From: Fidelibacterota bacterium
Lineage (GTDB): Bacteria > Fidelibacterota > Marinisomatia > Marinisomatales > Marinisomataceae
Assembly: GCA_028140795.1 (NCBI GenBank)
Contig: JAOIOW010000004.1
Coordinates: 1 to 64,000 of the forward strand
DNA length: 64,000 nucleotides
Reading direction: 5' to 3'
Part shown: positions 6,983-61,787 of the stretch, piece after piece
How the letters are laid out: each line of letters starts with the position of its first letter
Numbering within the stretch: the first letter of the stretch is position 1
Notes under the pieces: generated by a model
Databases searched by the model: none
Seen by the model: the letters and a program-made list of their open reading frames with translations, nothing else
Told to the model about the DNA's origin: nothing
Translations under genes and position numbers: made by a program

Positions 6983-7023
6983 TTTATTCTCCGTTCAATA
7001 GTTAATATTTACAGTATTATAGT

Positions 7024-7040
7024 TGCAAACGGAGTGCCAA
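7024..7040 (-). promoter_or_regulatory. Sigma-54 (-24/-12) promoter of hsp20
   Basis: Read on the minus strand the sequence is TTGGCACTCCGTTTGCA: the TGGCAC -24 box and TTGCA -12 box with exactly 10 bases between the invariant GG and GC. This is the RpoN consensus. The expected transcription start near 7012 leaves a leader of about 30 nt carrying the GGAG ribosome site of hsp20. An enhancer-binding protein site would be expected further upstream on the minus strand (above about 7060), where a loose ATGC...GCAT dyad is seen at 7052-7066. Confidence 0.8.
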
Positions 7041-7132
7041 TTAGAAAGGATATGCAAGTTTGGCATAAATAAATTTTAAGCATTGCCATTTTTTCAAATT
7101 GTAGTAAAATTGTATGAATTTTTGACATAAAA

Positions 7133-8569
7133 ATGAATTTTAAGAAAATATTATCACAAGCAAATAGTAAAGCAGAATGGGTCGGCCTTCGTTATGTTGA
7201 AGAAAAACAAAATATTCTTTCTACTAAAAAGTTTTCTTTAGACAATGTACAGCGCAATGCTACTAGAGGAGTGATGATTGATGTAATGGTAAATGGACAA
7301 TTTTCTTATTACGCCACTCCATTTCTTAATGAAAAACATATTCTTGAATGTATAGATATTGCTGTCAATAATGCCCAGCTAGCATCAAAATTTTCCGTGT
7401 TTAAATTTGATCATGACGAAGTTAGAAAAGGTTATGAAGGTACGTACAAAACAAACCTGAAATCTCCGTTAAGCAATTTATCAGTTAACGATATAAAAGA
7501 TTTAGCATTTCTTGGATCAAAAAACATGATGAATTTTGATAAAAGAATTGTTCATGCAGCTACCACTGTAGAGCTAATTGAGCGTAACACTAGAATTGTA
7601 AGCACAAATGGTGCTGACATAGACCAAAAAATGGATATTGTTTTGGTGGAATTATCCTCAACAGCTCAGGACAAAAATGATTCACAAACTCGTAGTAATC
7701 ATGGAATGAGAGGACATTGTTTTCAAGCTGGCGCTGAGTTTATAGAAGATTATGATATTCAAGCAGAAGCAAAGCAAATTTCTCATCAAGCTATTGAGTT
7801 ATTAGAGGCAGATCAATGTCCAACAGAAGTTTGTGATCTGGTATTAGCTCCTGATCAAATGATGCTACAAATCCATGAAAGCGTAGGGCATCCATTAGAG
7901 CTTGATAGAATTTTAGGAGATGAAAGAAATTTTGCTGGTTCAAGTTTTGTTAACCTTGAAGACTTTGGAACATTGCAATATGGTTCTGAATTGATGAATA
8001 TTGTATTTGATCCTACCGTTGATAACCAGCTGGCATCATACAATTATGATGATGGAGGAATGCCTGCTGCAAAAGAACATTTAATTAAAGATGGTATTCT
8101 TGTTAGAGGGTTAGGTGGTATTGAGAGTCAAATACGTTCTGGAATTGACGGTGTATCAAATCTAAGAGCATCATCTTGGAACAGGATTCCAATTGATCGA
8201 ATGGCAAATATTAACCTCGAGCCTGGAGTTTCAACCAAGGAAGAAATTATCGGAAGTATTGAGCGAGGGGTGTACATGGAAAGCAATCGTTCATGGTCCA
8301 TCGATGACTACAGAAATAAATTTCAATTCGGATGTGAATATGCAAAATTGATTGAAAATGGGGAATTGACCAAAGTTGTAAAAAATCCAAATTACAGAGG
8401 AATCACTAATCCATTTTGGAGAAGTCTTTCTATGACAGGAAATGAGGATACCTATGAAGTGTTTGGTACTCCAAATTGTGGAAAAGGTGAGCCTAATCAG
8501 GTCGAGAGAGTTGGACATGCTTCTCCGTTATGTAAATTTGATAAAGTTCAAGTATTTGGAGGAACATAA
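7133..8569 (+). CDS. tldD: Metalloprotease TldD
   Basis: TldD is the zinc-protease subunit of the TldD/TldE heterodimer, which degrades unfolded peptides and matures some ribosomally made peptides. The family zinc motif HESVGH is present at residues 248-253 (HExxxH). It is followed by LELDRILGDERNFAGSSF and NLRASSWNRIPIDRMANINL, both typical of TldD. At 478 residues it is full length. It is co-transcribed with tldE, whose start overlaps its stop by one base. ATG at 7133 follows a 150-nt intergenic region shared with the divergent hsp20. Confidence 0.95.
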   Translation: MNFKKILSQANSKAEWVGLRYVEEKQNILSTKKFSLDNVQRNATRGVMIDVMVNGQFSYYATPFLNEKHILECIDIAVNNAQLASKFSVFKFDHDEVRKGYEGTYKTNLKSPLSNLSVNDIKDLAFLGSKNMMNFDKRIVHAATTVELIERNTRIVSTNGADIDQKMDIVLVELSSTAQDKNDSQTRSNHGMRGHCFQAGAEFIEDYDIQAEAKQISHQAIELLEADQCPTEVCDLVLAPDQMMLQIHESVGHPLELDRILGDERNFAGSSFVNLEDFGTLQYGSELMNIVFDPTVDNQLASYNYDDGGMPAAKEHLIKDGILVRGLGGIESQIRSGIDGVSNLRASSWNRIPIDRMANINLEPGVSTKEEIIGSIERGVYMESNRSWSIDDYRNKFQFGCEYAKLIENGELTKVVKNPNYRGITNPFWRSLSMTGNEDTYEVFGTPNCGKGEPNQVERVGHASPLCKFDKVQVFGGT

Positions 8570-54860: not shown

Positions 54861-54898
54861 ATTTATCTAATTATACATAATATATATTATGCGCAAAA

Positions 54899-56500
54899 TT
54901 ATATATTATCTAAATATTTCTCCTTATATGTTTTGTTATCATCAATATTATTATAATTTTTAACTAAATTTAAAAAATCTACAGTTTCTAAAGCTTTCAC
55001 AAAAACACTATCCGTTCTATGCTCAAATGTAATGAAGTTAAGAAATCTGTTTGTATCTTCATGTATATATGGAGCAATTAAATTTAAATGCTTTTCTTTA
55101 AATTCTGAAAATTCATTATCATCTAATAAATGTCTAACTATCGATGTTGTTTCATTGTTTAATTGCTGTTTTTTTGAAGTGATCAAAGTAACTTCAACTA
55201 ACCAATAAATTTCTTTTGAATTATTTGAATAAACATAAATATCGCCCTGTCTGCTTGCATAATGAAGAGGAATTCCTTTTGAATCTGTTTTGTAACTTGG
55301 TTTTATATAAAATTGATCTCCATACTTAATATAAAGCAAAAGAGATATTAGAAGCTCAAACAACAATGGAGTTCTTTTTAATGAAACTGGATTTTTTCTT
55401 TTTAGTGTCTCTATAGGAAAATACTTATTAAACTTTCCTCCATTGCTAATATATTTAATTGCTTCAATTAATTGATCTTCATCTACATTGAATTCTCGAA
55501 CTAAATTATGTAATTGAGTATTAACGTCAATTATGTCTGGTTCTGGAACTTTTACATCAAAGATATCTTTAAATTCTCTACTGTAAGTTCCTAGTTTTTC
55601 AAAATATAATTTTTTATCGGTTTTTTCTTCTTCAATTAGAACGAAATCAATTTCTGCAAGCTTTTCAATCATTTCTTTTTGATTATCATTTAAACTGTAA
55701 ACATATTGATTATTTGTAATAAAACCGCAAATAGTAAGCATTCTTAATATAGAGTCCGGATAGTCTTTATAATATGTTGTTTCACTCAGGATTTTAAAGT
55801 GACTTCCAATATCATTTTGTATATCTAAAAGTAAACTTTTTAGCGTATCACTGTCGGGAATTGTATTTTCTTCGATTGTTTCTAAAAAATCATCGACATC
55901 GCCATCAATTGAAAATGTTGAAAGAACAAATTGATTATATGACAACCTATTTGTCTCTTTTTGCAACAAAACTTTTAAAAGAAATCTAAAATAATTAAAA
56001 TCATTACCAATTTTAGATGATGCCCTGTATGGATTCCTCCTATTGTGCTTTATTGCCTGCATTGCAAAAACTTGCTGTTCAGTTAATTCGTTATTTATAA
56101 ACATATTTCCAACTTCAGAAAATTCAAGGATTCCATTGTACTCAGCATATATCAATCCAAACTCACGAGGAATCCAAGTATAATTATGAAATCTTGCAAT
56201 ATGTCCCCTACCTGTACTTTCACCTGGAAAACCACCAATTGCTTTTCTACCTGAGTGAATATTAATCACCCTATCTCTAATACTATCAATTGTATCTTCA
56301 TCGGTTAGTTGCAAATGATCAGAGCTTGGAAGGAATGGATTATTTCTTGATTCTAGCATTAATTTACATACAATATTAGTTATAGTTTCATCATCGAGAG
56401 TTTGACCATCATATTCTTTAATTATTGTTAGAATGTCTTTAAATCTCTCAGGATTTCTCATTGATGTATCTAAAGATAGCTGTTTATAAGGATGTGGCAT
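54899..56500 (-). CDS. Type IIS restriction/nicking endonuclease (AlwI/Nt.BspD6I family)
   Basis: 533 residues. An N-terminal DNA-recognition region begins with LDTSMRNPERFKDIL, like the NPER/SPEK start of AlwI-type enzymes. The C-terminal PD-(D/E)xK cleavage domain has E382 in FELLISLLLYIKYG, D420 in RQGDIYVY, E436 in LVEVTLITSKKQQ and E450 followed by TTSIVRHLL. This pattern and its spacing agree with what I recall for Nt.BspD6I/Nt.BstNBI (PD...GEVTTSK...E..VTRHYL). It should cut or nick a few bases outside an asymmetric site. It is last of five overlapping minus-strand genes that include two adenine methyltransferases. Confidence 0.85.
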   Translation of the reverse strand: MPHPYKQLSLDTSMRNPERFKDILTIIKEYDGQTLDDETITNIVCKLMLESRNNPFLPSSDHLQLTDEDTIDSIRDRVINIHSGRKAIGGFPGESTGRGHIARFHNYTWIPREFGLIYAEYNGILEFSEVGNMFINNELTEQQVFAMQAIKHNRRNPYRASSKIGNDFNYFRFLLKVLLQKETNRLSYNQFVLSTFSIDGDVDDFLETIEENTIPDSDTLKSLLLDIQNDIGSHFKILSETTYYKDYPDSILRMLTICGFITNNQYVYSLNDNQKEMIEKLAEIDFVLIEEEKTDKKLYFEKLGTYSREFKDIFDVKVPEPDIIDVNTQLHNLVREFNVDEDQLIEAIKYISNGGKFNKYFPIETLKRKNPVSLKRTPLLFELLISLLLYIKYGDQFYIKPSYKTDSKGIPLHYASRQGDIYVYSNNSKEIYWLVEVTLITSKKQQLNNETTSIVRHLLDDNEFSEFKEKHLNLIAPYIHEDTNRFLNFITFEHRTDSVFVKALETVDFLNLVKNYNNIDDNKTYKEKYLDNI

Positions 56501-57234
56501 TATTTATTAAGTTCTATTATAATATCTTTCATATCCAAGGACTTCGAAAATGGTATAACTAAATATTCTGATTTTTTATTGATTAATTCAAGGCTATAAA
56601 TATCTTGTGGTACAAAATCTTTTTTTATAGATATTTCTCTGTCACCCATCATAGTCCATGTCGCTCCTCCTGTAAGATAAACTTCAAGATTGTTAGATTT
56701 GAGTTTTTTATAAAATAAATCAACAGAAAATGGATAAAGTACTCTACCGTAAAAATCTTTTTTAATTTCATTCGGTTTATATTCATTTACATAAGGTCCA
56801 ATAACATCAAATTGATACTTAGGGTGGCATAAAGCAAATTCCAAGCCTTTAAATGGAAAGGAAGATCTAATTTCCATGGTCTTGTTGGTTTTTACAATTT
56901 TAATATCTATCTGATTATTAGGATCATCATAAATTGTAGATTCTGCAATTATATTCACCTTATTTAAAAAATGAATCCATAATTTTTCAGCTAAAATTCC
57001 GGCAATTGAATTCATAAATACTTGAGTGCTACTTCTACTGTATGTACTTAAGTTTGCTGACTTAGGATTAACTGCATTGCTCAACTCTTTCGCATCATCA
57101 ATACAATTATCTAAGAAAGTTTTGTCTTCTTCATCCTGATAGTTAAAAATATATTCAATAACAGTAAATGGATGTTTACGCATAGAAGATTCACTGTACT
57201 TTAAACAATCAATTTTTTTCGATGAAAATTTCAT
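56500..57234 (-). CDS. Putative restriction-system nuclease subunit (PD-(D/E)xK-like)
   Basis: 244 residues, no family recognised by name. Residues 79-123 read as a degenerate PD-(D/E)xK core: Glu83 in AGILAEKLWIHFL, Asp110 in NQIDIKIV and Glu121-Ile-Arg123 in TMEIRSSFPFKGLE, with Arg in place of the usual Lys. It is locked by one-base overlaps between the AlwI-like endonuclease and a methyltransferase. Heterodimeric type IIS enzymes (BspD6I, BsrDI, BtsI) use a second, smaller nuclease subunit to cut the other strand. This protein may play that part, although it does not look like the known small subunits. Confidence 0.6.
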   Translation of the reverse strand: MKFSSKKIDCLKYSESSMRKHPFTVIEYIFNYQDEEDKTFLDNCIDDAKELSNAVNPKSANLSTYSRSSTQVFMNSIAGILAEKLWIHFLNKVNIIAESTIYDDPNNQIDIKIVKTNKTMEIRSSFPFKGLEFALCHPKYQFDVIGPYVNEYKPNEIKKDFYGRVLYPFSVDLFYKKLKSNNLEVYLTGGATWTMMGDREISIKKDFVPQDIYSLELINKKSEYLVIPFSKSLDMKDIIIELNK

Positions 57235-58139
57235 TAATAATTTGTTACAAGAACCTCTTTAAATGATTTAATACTATTATCATGATAAGCGATGTAATTA
57301 CTCTTAACATTGTGAGAATTATATTGTTTACTCCAGCTCAAGAATGATTCATTTATTCTTCCTTTGTAATGAGTAACATTTGATATGGCAAATCGAATAC
57401 CTTTCTCATTTAATTTATCTAATAAGTTAAGCAGTCTCTCCTCCTCTTCTTGATTCCAATATTTATTGTACTCACTAAATGTTATAAGATATGGAGGATC
57501 TAAATAAATAAAATCTTTATTAGATAAAGTAATTTTATCAAAAAATGACTCAAAATCTAATGAATACCAAGTTATATCTTTGGTTGGAATAGTATTAAAA
57601 TATCCATTTAAAGCATTGTAAACATTTGAATTAAAATCAACATTACCAACAGGAATATTAAAATTACCTTCTTTATTAAATCGCAACATACGATTAAAGC
57701 CATAAATCATTAAAATATAGAGCTTTAAGAGATCAACCTTATCACTTGTATTAAAATTGTTTTTTAAGCGGTTATACCCTTCTTTATTAAATTTTGAATA
57801 ATATGTCTTTACAAACTCTTTCTTTAGTTTGATTGGAACAATATCTTTTAGGTAAGAGTGAGATAATCCGTATTCCATAATGATTTTTTCTACATTTTTA
57901 AAAAATAGCTCTGGGTTAACAGATTGTTTTGATAAATATTGATGAATATCAATTACTGTATTATCAAGATCGTTTAATAAATATTTTTTTGCATTGACGT
58001 TTAGAAAAACTGATCCACCGCCAACAAAAGGCTCAATGAATTGATTAATATCGTTAGGGAAATAGGTAGTTATTTCAGGTAATAATTTATATTTATCACC
58101 AACATAAAATAGCGGAGATCTTAAAAATTTATTTTTCAT
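57234..58139 (-). CDS. D12-class N6-adenine DNA methyltransferase (Dam-like)
   Basis: 301 residues. AdoMet-binding motif X/I: PLFYVGDKYKLLPEI and FIEPFVGGGSVFLN (residues about 36-46). The catalytic motif IV is YLDPPYL (DPPY 214-217), in the alpha-group order of Dam and M.DpnII-like enzymes. It should methylate adenine in one strand of the restriction site. Overlaps are one base with the putative nuclease and 11 bases with the second methyltransferase, so all are co-translated. Confidence 0.9.
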   Translation of the reverse strand: MKNKFLRSPLFYVGDKYKLLPEITTYFPNDINQFIEPFVGGGSVFLNVNAKKYLLNDLDNTVIDIHQYLSKQSVNPELFFKNVEKIIMEYGLSHSYLKDIVPIKLKKEFVKTYYSKFNKEGYNRLKNNFNTSDKVDLLKLYILMIYGFNRMLRFNKEGNFNIPVGNVDFNSNVYNALNGYFNTIPTKDITWYSLDFESFFDKITLSNKDFIYLDPPYLITFSEYNKYWNQEEEERLLNLLDKLNEKGIRFAISNVTHYKGRINESFLSWSKQYNSHNVKSNYIAYHDNSIKSFKEVLVTNY

Positions 58140-59136
58140 TTACTTTCGTTATAAATAGATATTCTTTATGATCTTTAAAATCAGTTTTTCCTGCATTAAA
58201 AAATTTATGAGGAGCATTAAAAACTTTGGTTTGTCCTTTACTTTTAAGGACTTCTTTAATTTCTTCAAGTTTAATTTTGTTTTCTGAAGAACTACTCTTT
58301 GATGAATATGTGTTATTGTATGAAACAACTAAGTATTTTGCATTCAAGTCATTAACAAGCTCCTTAAATGCATTTAAAGCAGTAATTCTACAATACTTAC
58401 TCATATTTTCTGCTTCGGGTTTTAAAGCTACACCAAAGAGTTCGGGTTTTTTCCATTGAACAAGGTTCTCATAAATATGATAAAAACGACTATATTGTCT
58501 TGAATTATAAGGTGGGTCTATATAAACAATATCAGTATTAATTTTCTTTGCTAAAATATTTGCATCCTCTCTAAAAATTTTGACATTCCTAACTTTCCTT
58601 GAATTTATACTTTTAAAAACTAATTCTCTTTTTGGAATTGGTTTTTTTATATAAGCATCAAAATGACCAACTGTATTTGATACTCTATCAATATTATAAA
58701 TTAATGTAGTAAGCAAGATTGAAAGCTCTTTATTATTAAATTTTGATTTATTTTTGTTTATTTCTTCACGAATAAACCCAATTTTTTTTGCATGATTATG
58801 GTCAAAAAATTTTCCTCCAAAATTTTTAGAAAAATAATTCTCTGAAATTTTATCACTTTCAATAGAGTTCCAACGATCAATTAATTTATTGATTTTAAGT
58901 TTATCATAATTTTCATTATCAAAAAATGCATTATAGAATACCTCGTTTGAAAAAAGAAAATCATTTATAATTACTTTTTCAAAAATTTCTATAGCTTTTT
59001 TTGAAACAATACCAGTTCCAGCAAAAATATCACAAAAGGATTTACAATCACGAGTCTGGCTATTTATGCATTCAAATATCCAATCAGATAGTTGAGTTTT
59101 ACTGCCAATATATCTTCTATTTTCAATTTCAATCAT
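58129..59136 (-). CDS. Second D12-class N6-adenine DNA methyltransferase
   Basis: 335 residues. RRYIGSKTQLSDWIFECI and FCDIFAGTGIVSKKA (FAGTG 38-42) form the AdoMet site, and VYIDPPYNSRQYSRFYHIYENLV carries DPPY 207-210. The extended RQYSRFYH segment is typical of M.FokI/M.HgaI-like adenine methylases that recognise asymmetric sites. Having two different adenine methylases in one operon is how type IIS systems protect both strands. It overlaps its neighbours by 11 and 8 bases. Confidence 0.9.
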   Translation of the reverse strand: MIEIENRRYIGSKTQLSDWIFECINSQTRDCKSFCDIFAGTGIVSKKAIEIFEKVIINDFLFSNEVFYNAFFDNENYDKLKINKLIDRWNSIESDKISENYFSKNFGGKFFDHNHAKKIGFIREEINKNKSKFNNKELSILLTTLIYNIDRVSNTVGHFDAYIKKPIPKRELVFKSINSRKVRNVKIFREDANILAKKINTDIVYIDPPYNSRQYSRFYHIYENLVQWKKPELFGVALKPEAENMSKYCRITALNAFKELVNDLNAKYLVVSYNNTYSSKSSSSENKIKLEEIKEVLKSKGQTKVFNAPHKFFNAGKTDFKDHKEYLFITKVNEK

Positions 59137-59611
59137 ATTTATTTGGTTTTACTCCGTAAATCTCATGATGAATATGGTAACCTTTATTAAAAAGCTCAAA
59201 ATGTATTTTATTTAATTTTTTAAATTTATTATCGACTTTTACAGCATCTTCTTTTGAATCGCTTGATAAAAATCTATAAAAACATCTTTCTAAATTTATG
59301 GAAACATCCTTTCGTTTCTCATTATTATTTCTACCTGATCTAACGCCACCATAATCATATAATACAAGCGTATTCATTCTTGATAATGCATTTTTGCTTT
59401 CTCCGAACAATAATGGAACAAATCTATTTTCAATTTTTAAGAATAATTCATAAACGCCTGGACCTTCTTTTATATCTTGATCCCTCAATAAATCTTTTAG
59501 ATTTCTGAATTTTGGATTAGGAAACTTTTTTTTATGCGACCAGGGTAAATTATTCAATTCATTTAATAAATCCTTAAAATCCTTATCTACTAATGTTGGG
59601 TGTTTTAACAT
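59129..59611 (-). CDS. Degenerate GIY-YIG domain protein of the R-M operon
   Basis: 160 residues. PGVYELFLKIENRFVPLLFGESKNALSRM aligns with a GIY-YIG nuclease core: GVY at 52-54, LFG at 68-70 in place of YIG, and Arg78 at the conserved Arg position. A later NLERCFYRFLSSDSKEDAVKVDNKF could supply the Glu. It is the first gene of the overlapping operon (8-base overlap with the methyltransferase). It may be a nickase, a repair nuclease acting on deaminated or mismatched sites as Vsr does, or a catalytically dead regulator. The assignment rests on pattern only. Confidence 0.55.
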   Translation of the reverse strand: MLKHPTLVDKDFKDLLNELNNLPWSHKKKFPNPKFRNLKDLLRDQDIKEGPGVYELFLKIENRFVPLLFGESKNALSRMNTLVLYDYGGVRSGRNNNEKRKDVSINLERCFYRFLSSDSKEDAVKVDNKFKKLNKIHFELFNKGYHIHHEIYGVKPNKYD

Positions 59612-59640
59612 TATAAATTTAAAAATTACCTGATATTTTT

Positions 59641-59688
59641 AGTACCTGTTGCAAAATTGGAGAGAAACAAAAATCTACAACAGGTACT
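59641..59688. repeat. Perfect 11-bp inverted repeat between R-M operon and unknown module
   Basis: AGTACCTGTTG (59641-59651) and CAACAGGTACT (59678-59688) are separated by 26 nt. They lie in the 108-nt gap before the R-M operon start and after the stop of the 362-aa gene. No T-run follows on either strand, so a standard terminator is unlikely. An operator for autoregulation or a hairpin in the leader are the main options. Confidence 0.7.
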
Positions 59689-59719
59689 TTTCCATGGATG
59701 TGTGGCACTATGGTTGGCA

Positions 59720-60808
59720 TTAATCGTTAGCTTTATTATTTTCAATGTGATTAATTAAAGTATCTATTTTTTTCTCCAATAATTGGTTACGATTTTTAAG
59801 ATCTAAAAATGTTTTTTCAATTTTTTCTTCAAAAGTTTTCTTTAGATTTTTTTCTGATTCAAACACAGATTTTGTGATAATATTATCATTAATTTGATTT
59901 TTTAAATCATCAATTTTTTTTAATGATTTTTTATCAATCTTTTTAAAATTACCTTCCAAATTTTCTTGATTTTTTTTACGAAAATGAAACTCATAATTCT
60001 CAATAAATCTTTTTAGTGACTTACTTATAGAATCAGTTATTTTATCGAAATCCTCAATATTATAATTATAGGTTCTGCTATTAGCTGGATTAAGAAAATT
60101 ATTAAAGCTCTCTATTCCTTTTTTAACTCTTTCAAGTCTTTTGTTTGATATTGCTTTAAATCTTTCATATTTAAATGTATCGTCGGAGTGGAAAATTGTA
60201 TTTGAAATTACATTACATTCAAACATTATTTCTAAATCTGAATCTTTATTCGAAGCTTTAAAATCATATCTATTTATTTTTCCATTATTTTTTTTAACAA
60301 CATCTTGTTTTACTTCATCAAATAAATATTCAAGGACATATTTGACCTTATTTTCCATTATATCTGATGCTTCTTGATTCCAATACTCTTTATTTTCATG
60401 ATCTGACATTCCTAAAGTTATTATAATCACATTTTGTCCAATTGGATGAAGATGAATATTTGGATTGCTAGTATCTTTTGATCTAAGTTTTTTTATCATC
60501 ATTTTAATATAATGCATAAACATTCTTACTTCTGTATTAAGTGATAATTGCTCATCAAACTCTTTTTTACCGTCATGAAATGGAATCTTCATATCAGGAT
60601 TATTATAAAAAGAATAAAGTTTTCTAAAATCCTTGGTTGTAATATGTAAATTTTGATTATTTCTATCAAATCCGTTATCTGAAGCATTTGAAATTTGATT
60701 GTCACCAAAAAAGAATGCTTTATTTTTATTATTTCTTTCCATTATTGAAGAAATTCTTTTTTTTATATCTACTTTGTTTGTCAATTTACCTGTTGCGCTA
60801 TTAATCAT
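59720..60808 (-). CDS. Unknown protein with C-terminal coiled coil (362 aa)
   Basis: No family recognised. Residues 1-120 are hydrophilic with an FFFGDNQISNASDNGFDRNN stretch. Residues about 115-215 form the most structured part, with alternating strands (NIHLHPIGQNVIIITLGMSDHENKEYWNQEA, DSDLEIMFECNVISNTIFHSDDTF). From about 280 to the end it is a Lys/Glu-rich heptad-like coiled coil (LKKIDDLKNQINDNIITKSVFESEKNLKKTFEEKIEKTF). No signal peptide or membrane segment. It overlaps the upstream 75-aa gene by 8 bases. The position next to a restriction system suggests a defence or mobile-element role, by inference only. Confidence 0.7.
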   Translation of the reverse strand: MINSATGKLTNKVDIKKRISSIMERNNKNKAFFFGDNQISNASDNGFDRNNQNLHITTKDFRKLYSFYNNPDMKIPFHDGKKEFDEQLSLNTEVRMFMHYIKMMIKKLRSKDTSNPNIHLHPIGQNVIIITLGMSDHENKEYWNQEASDIMENKVKYVLEYLFDEVKQDVVKKNNGKINRYDFKASNKDSDLEIMFECNVISNTIFHSDDTFKYERFKAISNKRLERVKKGIESFNNFLNPANSRTYNYNIEDFDKITDSISKSLKRFIENYEFHFRKKNQENLEGNFKKIDKKSLKKIDDLKNQINDNIITKSVFESEKNLKKTFEEKIEKTFLDLKNRNQLLEKKIDTLINHIENNKAND

Positions 60809-61028
60809 TTAATCTGTTCTCCTCAATTAATTCATCTATATCAAAAATTTTGTCTCTCCTATATCTTGCAAGTAAATCTTCAATCATTTGATTCATTAAT
60901 CTTATATCGCTATTATCTTTTAAATCAGCTAAAAGATTTAATGATTCTAATTTGTATTGCAAACCGTACATAATAACTCTAAGAGTTAAACCTTTTTTGA
61001 CTTCATCTTTTATTATTTTTGTTTCCAT
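60801..61028 (-). CDS. Small unknown protein (75 aa) paired with the 362-aa gene
   Basis: 75 residues, predicted mostly helical (RVIMYGLQYKLESLNLLADLKDNSDIRLMNQMIEDLLARYRRDKIFDIDELIEENRL), acidic at the C-terminus, no Cys or His motif. A strong GGAGG ribosome site lies 7 nt before ATG on the minus strand. The 8-base overlap with the following 362-aa gene makes a two-gene translationally coupled unit. The short-helical-protein-first layout resembles antitoxin-toxin or adaptor-effector pairs, but no homology is recognised. Confidence 0.65.
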   Translation of the reverse strand: METKIIKDEVKKGLTLRVIMYGLQYKLESLNLLADLKDNSDIRLMNQMIEDLLARYRRDKIFDIDELIEENRLND

Positions 61029-61279
61029 CTATTTCCTCCAATTGTTTATTTATCTACGAGATTAAATTTTTTTTGTTCCCAATTTTATTGTTATTTATAT
61101 AAAATAATAAATAATGAGAAAAAAAAATTACTATTCTATTGATTTTTTATATCCAGATTAATATATTTTTATCTCGACAAATTTAATTTTGATTCATTTT
61201 TAAATAAATTTCAAAGTTAAATCTGATATGCAAATTATTATTATTTTACAAAGTAATCAAGATATATTTTTACTCAAAA
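61029..61279. other. AT-rich intergenic region, probable promoter of the two-gene module
   Basis: 251 nt of almost pure A and T with long homopolymer runs and no convincing ORF or RNA. On the minus strand it must hold the promoter of the 75-aa/362-aa pair, but many TATAAT-like strings prevent choosing one. GAGAT-type half-sites near 61059 and 61172 form a loose dyad of uncertain meaning. Confidence 0.5.
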
Positions 61280-61630
61280 TCAATTTTTTTTAATTTTTAA
61301 TGGTTTTTCTAATGTTAATTCCAAAAATCTTCTTTGTCCTGGTATTCTATACCCTTTCGCAATAGACCGTATTTCTGTTATTCTAAATATTGCTTTGGGT
61401 CCTGATTCATATCTGCAAATAAATTGAATAGTCCAATTTTCTTTCTTTAATGTTTGTCGTGAAATTAGTTCGTAAGGAAATTTTGCATGTGATCCACATT
61501 CACACCCAAAACCAGTATCAATTAATAGCTTTGCACTACCTTTATTTTTAACCTCTTTTATTATGTTGAATCTTTTTTCCCATAACATAAGACCATACTT
61601 TAAGTTTAAATTATCTATGAATAAATCCAT
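61280..61630 (-). CDS. Unknown 116-aa protein downstream of a structured RNA
   Basis: No family recognised. The protein has an N-terminal helix-rich part (LFIDNLNLKYGLMLWEKRFNIIKEVKNKGSAKLLI), a GFGCECGSH segment that could bind metal or form a tight turn, then beta-rich basic text (ENWTIQFICRYESG, FRITEIRSIAKGYRIPGQRRFLELTLEKPLKIKKN) suggesting a small barrel or nucleic-acid binder. An excellent ribosome site (AAAAGGAG, 5 nt before ATG). An RNA with its own promoter and terminator ends about 30 nt upstream, so expression needs read-through or a second promoter. Confidence 0.7.
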   Translation of the reverse strand: MDLFIDNLNLKYGLMLWEKRFNIIKEVKNKGSAKLLIDTGFGCECGSHAKFPYELISRQTLKKENWTIQFICRYESGPKAIFRITEIRSIAKGYRIPGQRRFLELTLEKPLKIKKN

Positions 61631-61659
61631 TCTTACTCCTTTTGTTAGTCAGAACGGAA

Positions 61660-61775
61660 ATAAAAAAGCCCTCATCAGAGGGCTTCAGATATTTTCAGCA
61701 TTGCTGCTCATCTGTCACTTGACAAACCACCGTGGCTAAAGCTCGGTTGGTGGGATTACTCCCGTCCTGATGATA
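61660..61775 (-). ncRNA. Structured RNA (~115 nt) or leader ending in an intrinsic terminator
   Basis: On the minus strand a TATAAT box (61782-61787) predicts a transcript starting near 61775. Visible helices: GGGA-gtaa-TCCC; an imperfect CCACC...GGTGG arm with inner CCG/CGG pairing; CAGAT...CAGC-aat-GCTG...ATCTG; and a terminator GCCCTC-tgat-GAGGGC followed by TTTTTT (61661-61683). The 5' end TCATCAG (61767-61773) is perfectly complementary to CTGATGA (61672-61678) in the terminator loop and arm, so an alternative antiterminator pairing is possible. It does not match tmRNA, SRP RNA, 6S or a riboswitch class I can recall. A riboswitch-like attenuator or a stand-alone regulatory RNA fits best. 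Confidence 0.65.
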
Positions 61776-61781
61776 GTCAAT

Positions 61782-61787
61782 ATTATA
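61782..61787 (-). promoter_or_regulatory. -10 box of the structured RNA
   Basis: Exact TATAAT on the minus strand, with a poor TTGCAA -35 candidate about 15 bases upstream (near 61803-61808). The initiation point about 7 nt downstream coincides with the 5' end of the structured RNA. Confidence 0.45.

Follow-up and report, generated by a model that had tools for sequence, protein, structure and literature searches.

A putative Type IIS-like restriction-modification operon in a Fidelibacterota bacterium and its added nuclease-like protein family

Here, we describe an operon in the small genome of a marine Fidelibacterota bacterium of the SAR406/Marinimicrobia lineage (assembly GCA_028140795.1), located within the first 64,000 nucleotides (nt) of contig JAOIOW010000004.1, a stretch that was analysed as a whole and is called the window in the following. 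The operon spans positions 54899-59611 on the minus strand. Its five genes encode, in 5' to 3' reading order, a GIY-YIG-like protein (G), two adenine methylases (M1 and M2), a nuclease-like protein (S) and a restriction endonuclease (R). A preliminary description of this DNA had listed five minus-strand genes with successive overlaps of 1, 1, 11 and 8 bases, and the coordinates of the open reading frames (ORFs) agree with it in both respects (Table 1). From the gene content, the overlaps, the families of R, M1 and M2, the fold predicted for S and the residues conserved in it, and the gene neighbourhoods, all of which were obtained by computation, we infer the function of the operon as a whole.

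The best explanation, held with moderate confidence, is a horizontally acquired Type IIS-like restriction-modification (R-M) system to which a nuclease module, S, has been added. The target would be an asymmetric site in which M1 and M2 methylate adenine, one strand apiece. R, probably dimeric, would recognise this site in its unmethylated form and use its AlwI/BspD6I-type catalytic domain to cut beside it. S would act as a second nuclease of PD-(D/E)XK-type fold, whose translation is coupled to that of the methylase genes. If it is active and blocked by methylation, as we presume, it most likely cuts DNA without the adenine mark and thus adds to or backs up R. G would be an optional GIY-YIG accessory from the same pool of R-M accessory genes.

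Endonuclease R and the methylases M1 and M2

R matches the PADLOC model REase_II (5e-26), and its tblastn matches are plasmid genes annotated as AlwI family. R alone matches no PDB sequence, and no FokI-type match was seen in the Pfam, PADLOC, NCBIfam and PDB scans. The profile of an alignment of R with six homologues (A5) finds Nt.BspD6I at 1.2e-25 and the BspD6I small subunit at 6.5e-12. This bears out the preliminary assignment of R as an AlwI/Nt.BspD6I-like endonuclease. The quartet E382-D420-E436-E450, which had been read from the single sequence, is invariant in A5 as well as in an alignment with AlwI-family homologues, and it aligns with the catalytic residues E418, D456, E469 and E482 of Nt.BspD6I. 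The Tenacibaculum/Nonlabens homologue (L015), 34% identical to the window's R over its full length, scores 190 bits with PF09491 (AlwI). Profile match, shared quartet and this homologue thus place R, by sequence, as a divergent AlwI/BspD6I-type endonuclease.

Both methylases belong to the D12 family, as had been proposed from their DPPY and FxGxG motifs. M1 carries FAGTG and M2 FVGGG, each together with DPPY, and the suggested comparison with PF02086 gave 130 bits for M1 and 117 bits for M2 (cut-off 22). M1 additionally matches the PADLOC model MTase_II at 8e-130. M2 scores 147 bits with the Dam subfamily model TIGR00571, above the curated cut-off of 114.85, and matches T4 Dam at 5e-43. They are the sole D12 matches in the source genome (0.92 Mb, 12 contigs). 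Two different D12 methylases naturally suggest a site that is asymmetric and has an adenine on both strands, and the families of R, M1 and M2 together argue for a Type IIS-like R-M operon; both had been put forward in the preliminary description.

An endonuclease, a DNA adenine methylase and a Dam-family methylase are likewise the components of AlwI-family Type IIS systems with two adenine methylases. The same three proteins are encoded, without S, on plasmids of Leuconostoc, Staphylococcus and Helicobacter (L008-L010), and S is thus dispensable for systems of this type. With their counterparts on these plasmids, the window's methylases share about 45-53% identity. Its R is divergent, with 20-25% identity to the plasmid AlwI-family members.

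In an alignment of M2 with T4 Dam, Met, Arg and Pro are retained, which we take to be the residues that read ATC in GATC, and Val replaces Arg130, presumably the reader of the first G. This suggests that M2 targets xATC rather than GATC. SfaNI is the prototype for the site GCATC/GATGC. On these grounds, and with low confidence only, we guess that GCATC/GATGC is the most plausible recognition site of the operon, followed by GGATG/CATCC. The former is methylated by an AlwI-family system of Staphylococcus xylosus TMW 2.1324, in which the methylase is fused; the window differs from it in encoding its methylases as separate chains and in adding S and G (PMC10030836). The latter is methylated by FokI-like two-methylase systems of Prevotella (PMC5608340). 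The operon resembles such FokI-like systems (GGATG/CATCC) in that M1 and M2 match, in the same order, the halves of the fused methylase models PDLC03287 and PDLC03292 of PADLOC, whereas the R of the window is of the AlwI/BspD6I type. Observed and expected site counts in the window are close to each other (GCATC 81/94, GGATG 92/84, GGATC 67/60), which is uninformative for a recent island.

Protein S: predicted fold, relatives and gene neighbourhoods

S has no meaningful match in Pfam, NCBIfam, PADLOC or the PDB sequences, and its PHROGs matches are insignificant. An AlphaFold model built from 17 sequences reaches a predicted local distance difference test (pLDDT) of 86 and a predicted template modelling score of 0.86. 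Seven residues are invariant in all 17 sequences (alignment A4), namely E83, Q108, D110, E121, R123, S124 and S125. In the model, E83 lies in a long helix, D110 immediately ahead of a strand, and E121-x-R123 in the following strand, which is the arrangement expected for a PD-(D/E)XK active site. I-Ssp6803I and DpnI account for the four top Foldseek matches, and HindIII, a Holliday junction resolvase and the influenza endonuclease follow at lower rank, all at E >= 0.07; 2p14 is not among the matches listed. The fold of S is likely PD-(D/E)XK. The predicted fold and the invariant acidic residues support the earlier impression of a second nuclease-like protein and, judged by sequence, S represents a nuclease family uncatalogued in the Pfam, NCBIfam and PADLOC copies searched.

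Relatives of S were collected from plasmids, a genome scan and, by profile scan, two phage-tagged contigs. Leaving out L031, which lies at a contig end, and counting L012 (in G123, a genome of the window's class) and L026 as the same locus, 24 loci remain. A methylase gene is adjacent to S in 21 of them. In 19 of the 24, with partners of five kinds, the start of S falls within a range from 23 nt before the end of the methylase gene to 90 nt past it. The order M1-M2-S-R is found in the window, in Nonlabens (L015) and in Tenacibaculum (L016), with S and R adjacent or overlapping in the latter two. The recurrence of this order in two Flavobacteriaceae genomes makes the arrangement more than a chance assembly. 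In Lactococcus (L007), S is convergent beside M1-M2-R. One phage-tagged contig (L042) encodes S together with an M2-like methylase 63% identical to the M2 of the window; R was not found on this contig, nor M1 in the parts read.

The other partners belong to R-M systems of different types. S stands between mod and res of Type III systems in L017, L020, L021, L025, L026 and L041, and in L027 with a partial mod; other orders are res-mod-S (L023) and S-mod-res (L004). It also follows EcoRI-type methylases (L003, L028, L029, L030), a single N6_N4 methylase (L024) and, on archaeal plasmids, large N-6 methylases of IIG-like kind (L005, L006). All seven complete Type III Res proteins scanned from mod-S-res loci, and the Res of L004, keep the endonuclease domain PF19778. 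Beside the methylases of L003, L024 and L029, no nuclease other than S is evident. In the S tree, Type III and EcoRI-type partners each occur in more than one group, and L003 (EcoRI-type) is joined with L024 (N6_N4) at 100/99; many inner branches are weak. With partner kinds scattered over the tree in this way, S has switched partners.

Overall, S is rare. Beyond the seeds, a search of 199 genomes from the window's phylum gave a single further genome with S, and none of the 396 Bacteroidota and 200 Pseudomonadota genomes drawn yielded it. Neither S nor G could be traced as a phage gene: phage records gave no match and single-protein viral scans were empty, the two S loci on phage-tagged contigs coming from the profile scan. 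In two Runella species (L018 and L022, at 7001-7798), S with intact predicted catalytic residues lies between SDR and DUF3800 genes. In L016 (9298-10203, AlwI-type) as well as in L020 (10575-11486, Type III), a gene for a DUF5655 protein comes after that of the nuclease and is thus common to different R-M types.

Possible roles of S and G

Our preferred view of S is that of a portable nuclease, accessory to systems with adenine methylases. Its reading as an adjunct cutter follows from its relatives, which accompany Type III Mod-Res and elsewhere form apparent minimal pairs with a methylase. We entertain more tentatively a wider version of this idea, in which S would represent an undescribed class of portable nucleases working with N6-adenine methylases across Type II, IIG-like and Type III systems, and may either sense methylation itself or borrow the methylase for recognition.

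Several points weigh against the proposed R-M system with an added nuclease. R alone matches no Pfam family at E <= 1, PF09491 included, so that the AlwI check suggested in the preliminary description failed for R directly and succeeded only by way of its L015 homologue and of the profile match to BspD6I. The Foldseek E-values of S are weak (0.07 or worse), and R123 puts an Arg where the PD-(D/E)XK motif usually has Lys. Three loci, from Runella and a Saprospiraceae genome, carry S with no methylase nearby (L018, L019, L022). How a nuclease of 244 amino acids (aa) would serve methylases of unrelated specificity needs explanation. G has a single clear relative, and the nuclease activity of R and of any S member is something we infer from sequence.

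The preliminary description had spoken of two nuclease-like partners. A rival reading is a Type IIT heterodimer as in BspD6I, BtsI and BsrDI, with R cutting one strand and S as the obligate small subunit for the other. Restriction endonucleases of a large and a small subunit with two methylases have precedent (PMC4081073, PMC2909958), and R shares fold and catalytic quartet with the BspD6I large subunit, which is likewise encoded together with a second nuclease protein. The one-base overlap of S and R in the window, their close spacing in L015 and L016, and the position of S beside the AlwI-type set of Lactococcus would fit such a pair. However, it is the catalytic domain of R, and not S, that is matched by the BspD6I small subunit. 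S, tried as a homologue of this subunit, gained no support from profile searches; the A4 profile found no PDB sequence, the small subunit included. Moreover, most S relatives sit with other R-M methylases and without an AlwI-type enzyme, and AlwI-type systems exist without S. We consider the heterodimer unlikely, and S is probably not dedicated to R.

Alternatively, S could be a nuclease subunit that lacks a specificity of its own and, by docking, leaves DNA recognition to the methylase next to it. The nearly gapless position of S behind methylase genes of several classes, the partner switches in its tree, and L042, with its M2-like methylase and S, would all be compatible with docking. The partners, D12, EcoRI-type, N6_N4 and large N-6 methylases, are so diverse in structure that a common docking surface is doubtful, and the three S loci without a nearby methylase speak against it as well, which leaves docking rather improbable. 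A regulatory, repair or guard protein of nuclease-derived fold that moderates R-M systems is a last alternative, to which we give little credence. It would account for the coexistence of S with complete Res or AlwI-type nucleases and for its solitary occurrence in Runella, but all 17 sequences retain the acidic residues of the active site, and L003, L024 and L029 show a two-gene R-M layout with S next to the methylase.

Type III systems are related to the accessory genes of the operon in two ways, as S relatives are found in mod-S-res and the G relative in res-G-mod order inside Type III or Type III-like operons. The window itself has D12 methylases and an AlwI-type nuclease, and no Mod or Res. 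An extra gene of unknown role beside a Type III mod has been described, which encodes a helicase-like ATPase (PMC8259958); S and G are nuclease-like and differ from it.

G matches no Pfam family. Some 640 genomes from the window's phylum and the Bacteroidota gave one clear relative, and the plasmid and phage collections gave none. This relative, of 111 aa and 37% identical, comes from a Bacteroidota genome, where its gene is flanked by a Type III-like res (1031 aa) and a methylase gene (865 aa). The profile of the two sequences matches the UvrC GIY-YIG domain at E = 7e-4, and G carries GVY...LFG...R with Asp at the position of the UvrC glutamate (alignment A8). An AlphaFold2 model of G without alignment is uninformative (pLDDT 40). 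Kinship to GIY-YIG proteins is probable on this basis; the earlier designation as GIY-YIG-like is weakly supported, by the UvrC profile and not by Pfam. In L015 and L016 there is no G beside M1, and a search of their genomes gave no G relative either, which marks G as optional. The Bacteroidota locus (L038, 2479-9234) reads Type III-like res, GIY-YIG-like gene and methylase, with an AbiGi-domain gene last.

Genomic setting and significance

The operon is part of a 6.9 kb variable island with a GC content of 26.0%, compared to 32.4% in bases 1-54000. DNA conservation with six congeners breaks off near 54897-54921, a short way upstream of a DUF998-like gene adjoining leuS; in two of the six it sets in again near 61785. 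A search of 23 congeners for R gave no match, and the congeners searched for S and G gave none either. The inverted repeat just upstream of the operon is a possible operator or terminator.

Table 1. Features of the operon and its surroundings (window coordinates).
Feature	Position	Strand	Basis
R, AlwI/Nt.BspD6I-type restriction endonuclease by sequence, 533 aa	54899..56500	-	PADLOC REase_II, BspD6I profile match, catalytic quartet E382/D420/E436/E450
S, uncatalogued nuclease-like protein, predicted PD-(D/E)XK-type fold, 244 aa	56500..57234	-	relatives, alignment A4, AlphaFold2 model
M2, D12, Dam-subfamily adenine methylase, 301 aa	57234..58139	-	PF02086, TIGR00571, T4 Dam
M1, D12 adenine methylase, 335 aa	58129..59136	-	PF02086, PADLOC MTase_II
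G, GIY-YIG-like protein, 160 aa, Asp127 at usual catalytic Glu position	59129..59611	-	Type III-like relative, UvrC profile match, alignment A8
Inverted repeat, 10-bp perfect arms, GTACCTGTTG at 59642 and CAACAGGTAC at 59678	59642..59687		read from sequence; just upstream of operon
Variable island with operon	54899..61784		congener DNA conservation breaks and GC

The site between the DUF998-like gene beside leuS and an SDR gene is a defence hotspot of the genus, with R-M or related cargo that differs between congeners (L064-L069). It is essentially empty in G202 (L066). In others it is occupied by an m5C methylase plus GIY_YIG_2, a NucS/McrB-like gene plus GIY_YIG_2, a Type I system, or a set of D12 methylase and helicase. 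Two overlapping minus-strand genes of the window's island (59720-60808 and 60801-61028; 362 and 75 aa) have no family matches and are uncharacterised; the pair recurs, at 37% and 65% identity, in a different island of the congener at L064. A SAM-I/IV riboswitch above the gathering score (61680-61778, minus strand) with a terminator-like hairpin (61665-61686) lies upstream of an uncharacterised 116-aa ORF (61280-61630).

The core of the operon is a new, divergent member of a known system type, and the S module is what sets the whole operon apart. The usual definition of an R-M type pairs a methylase with one matching nuclease. The S family recurs directly behind adenine methylases of more than one type, and where these are of the Type III or AlwI kind, a complete restriction nuclease is there too. 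If our reading holds, the family would be a second effector that has been missed; defence annotation based on the searched Pfam, NCBIfam and PADLOC copies overlooks it. Apparent minimal methylase-S pairs occur, e.g., in Ignatzschineria and Helicobacteraceae. If the wider version of our idea proved true, R-M systems would gain a second, shared cutting arm that lies outside the current classifications.

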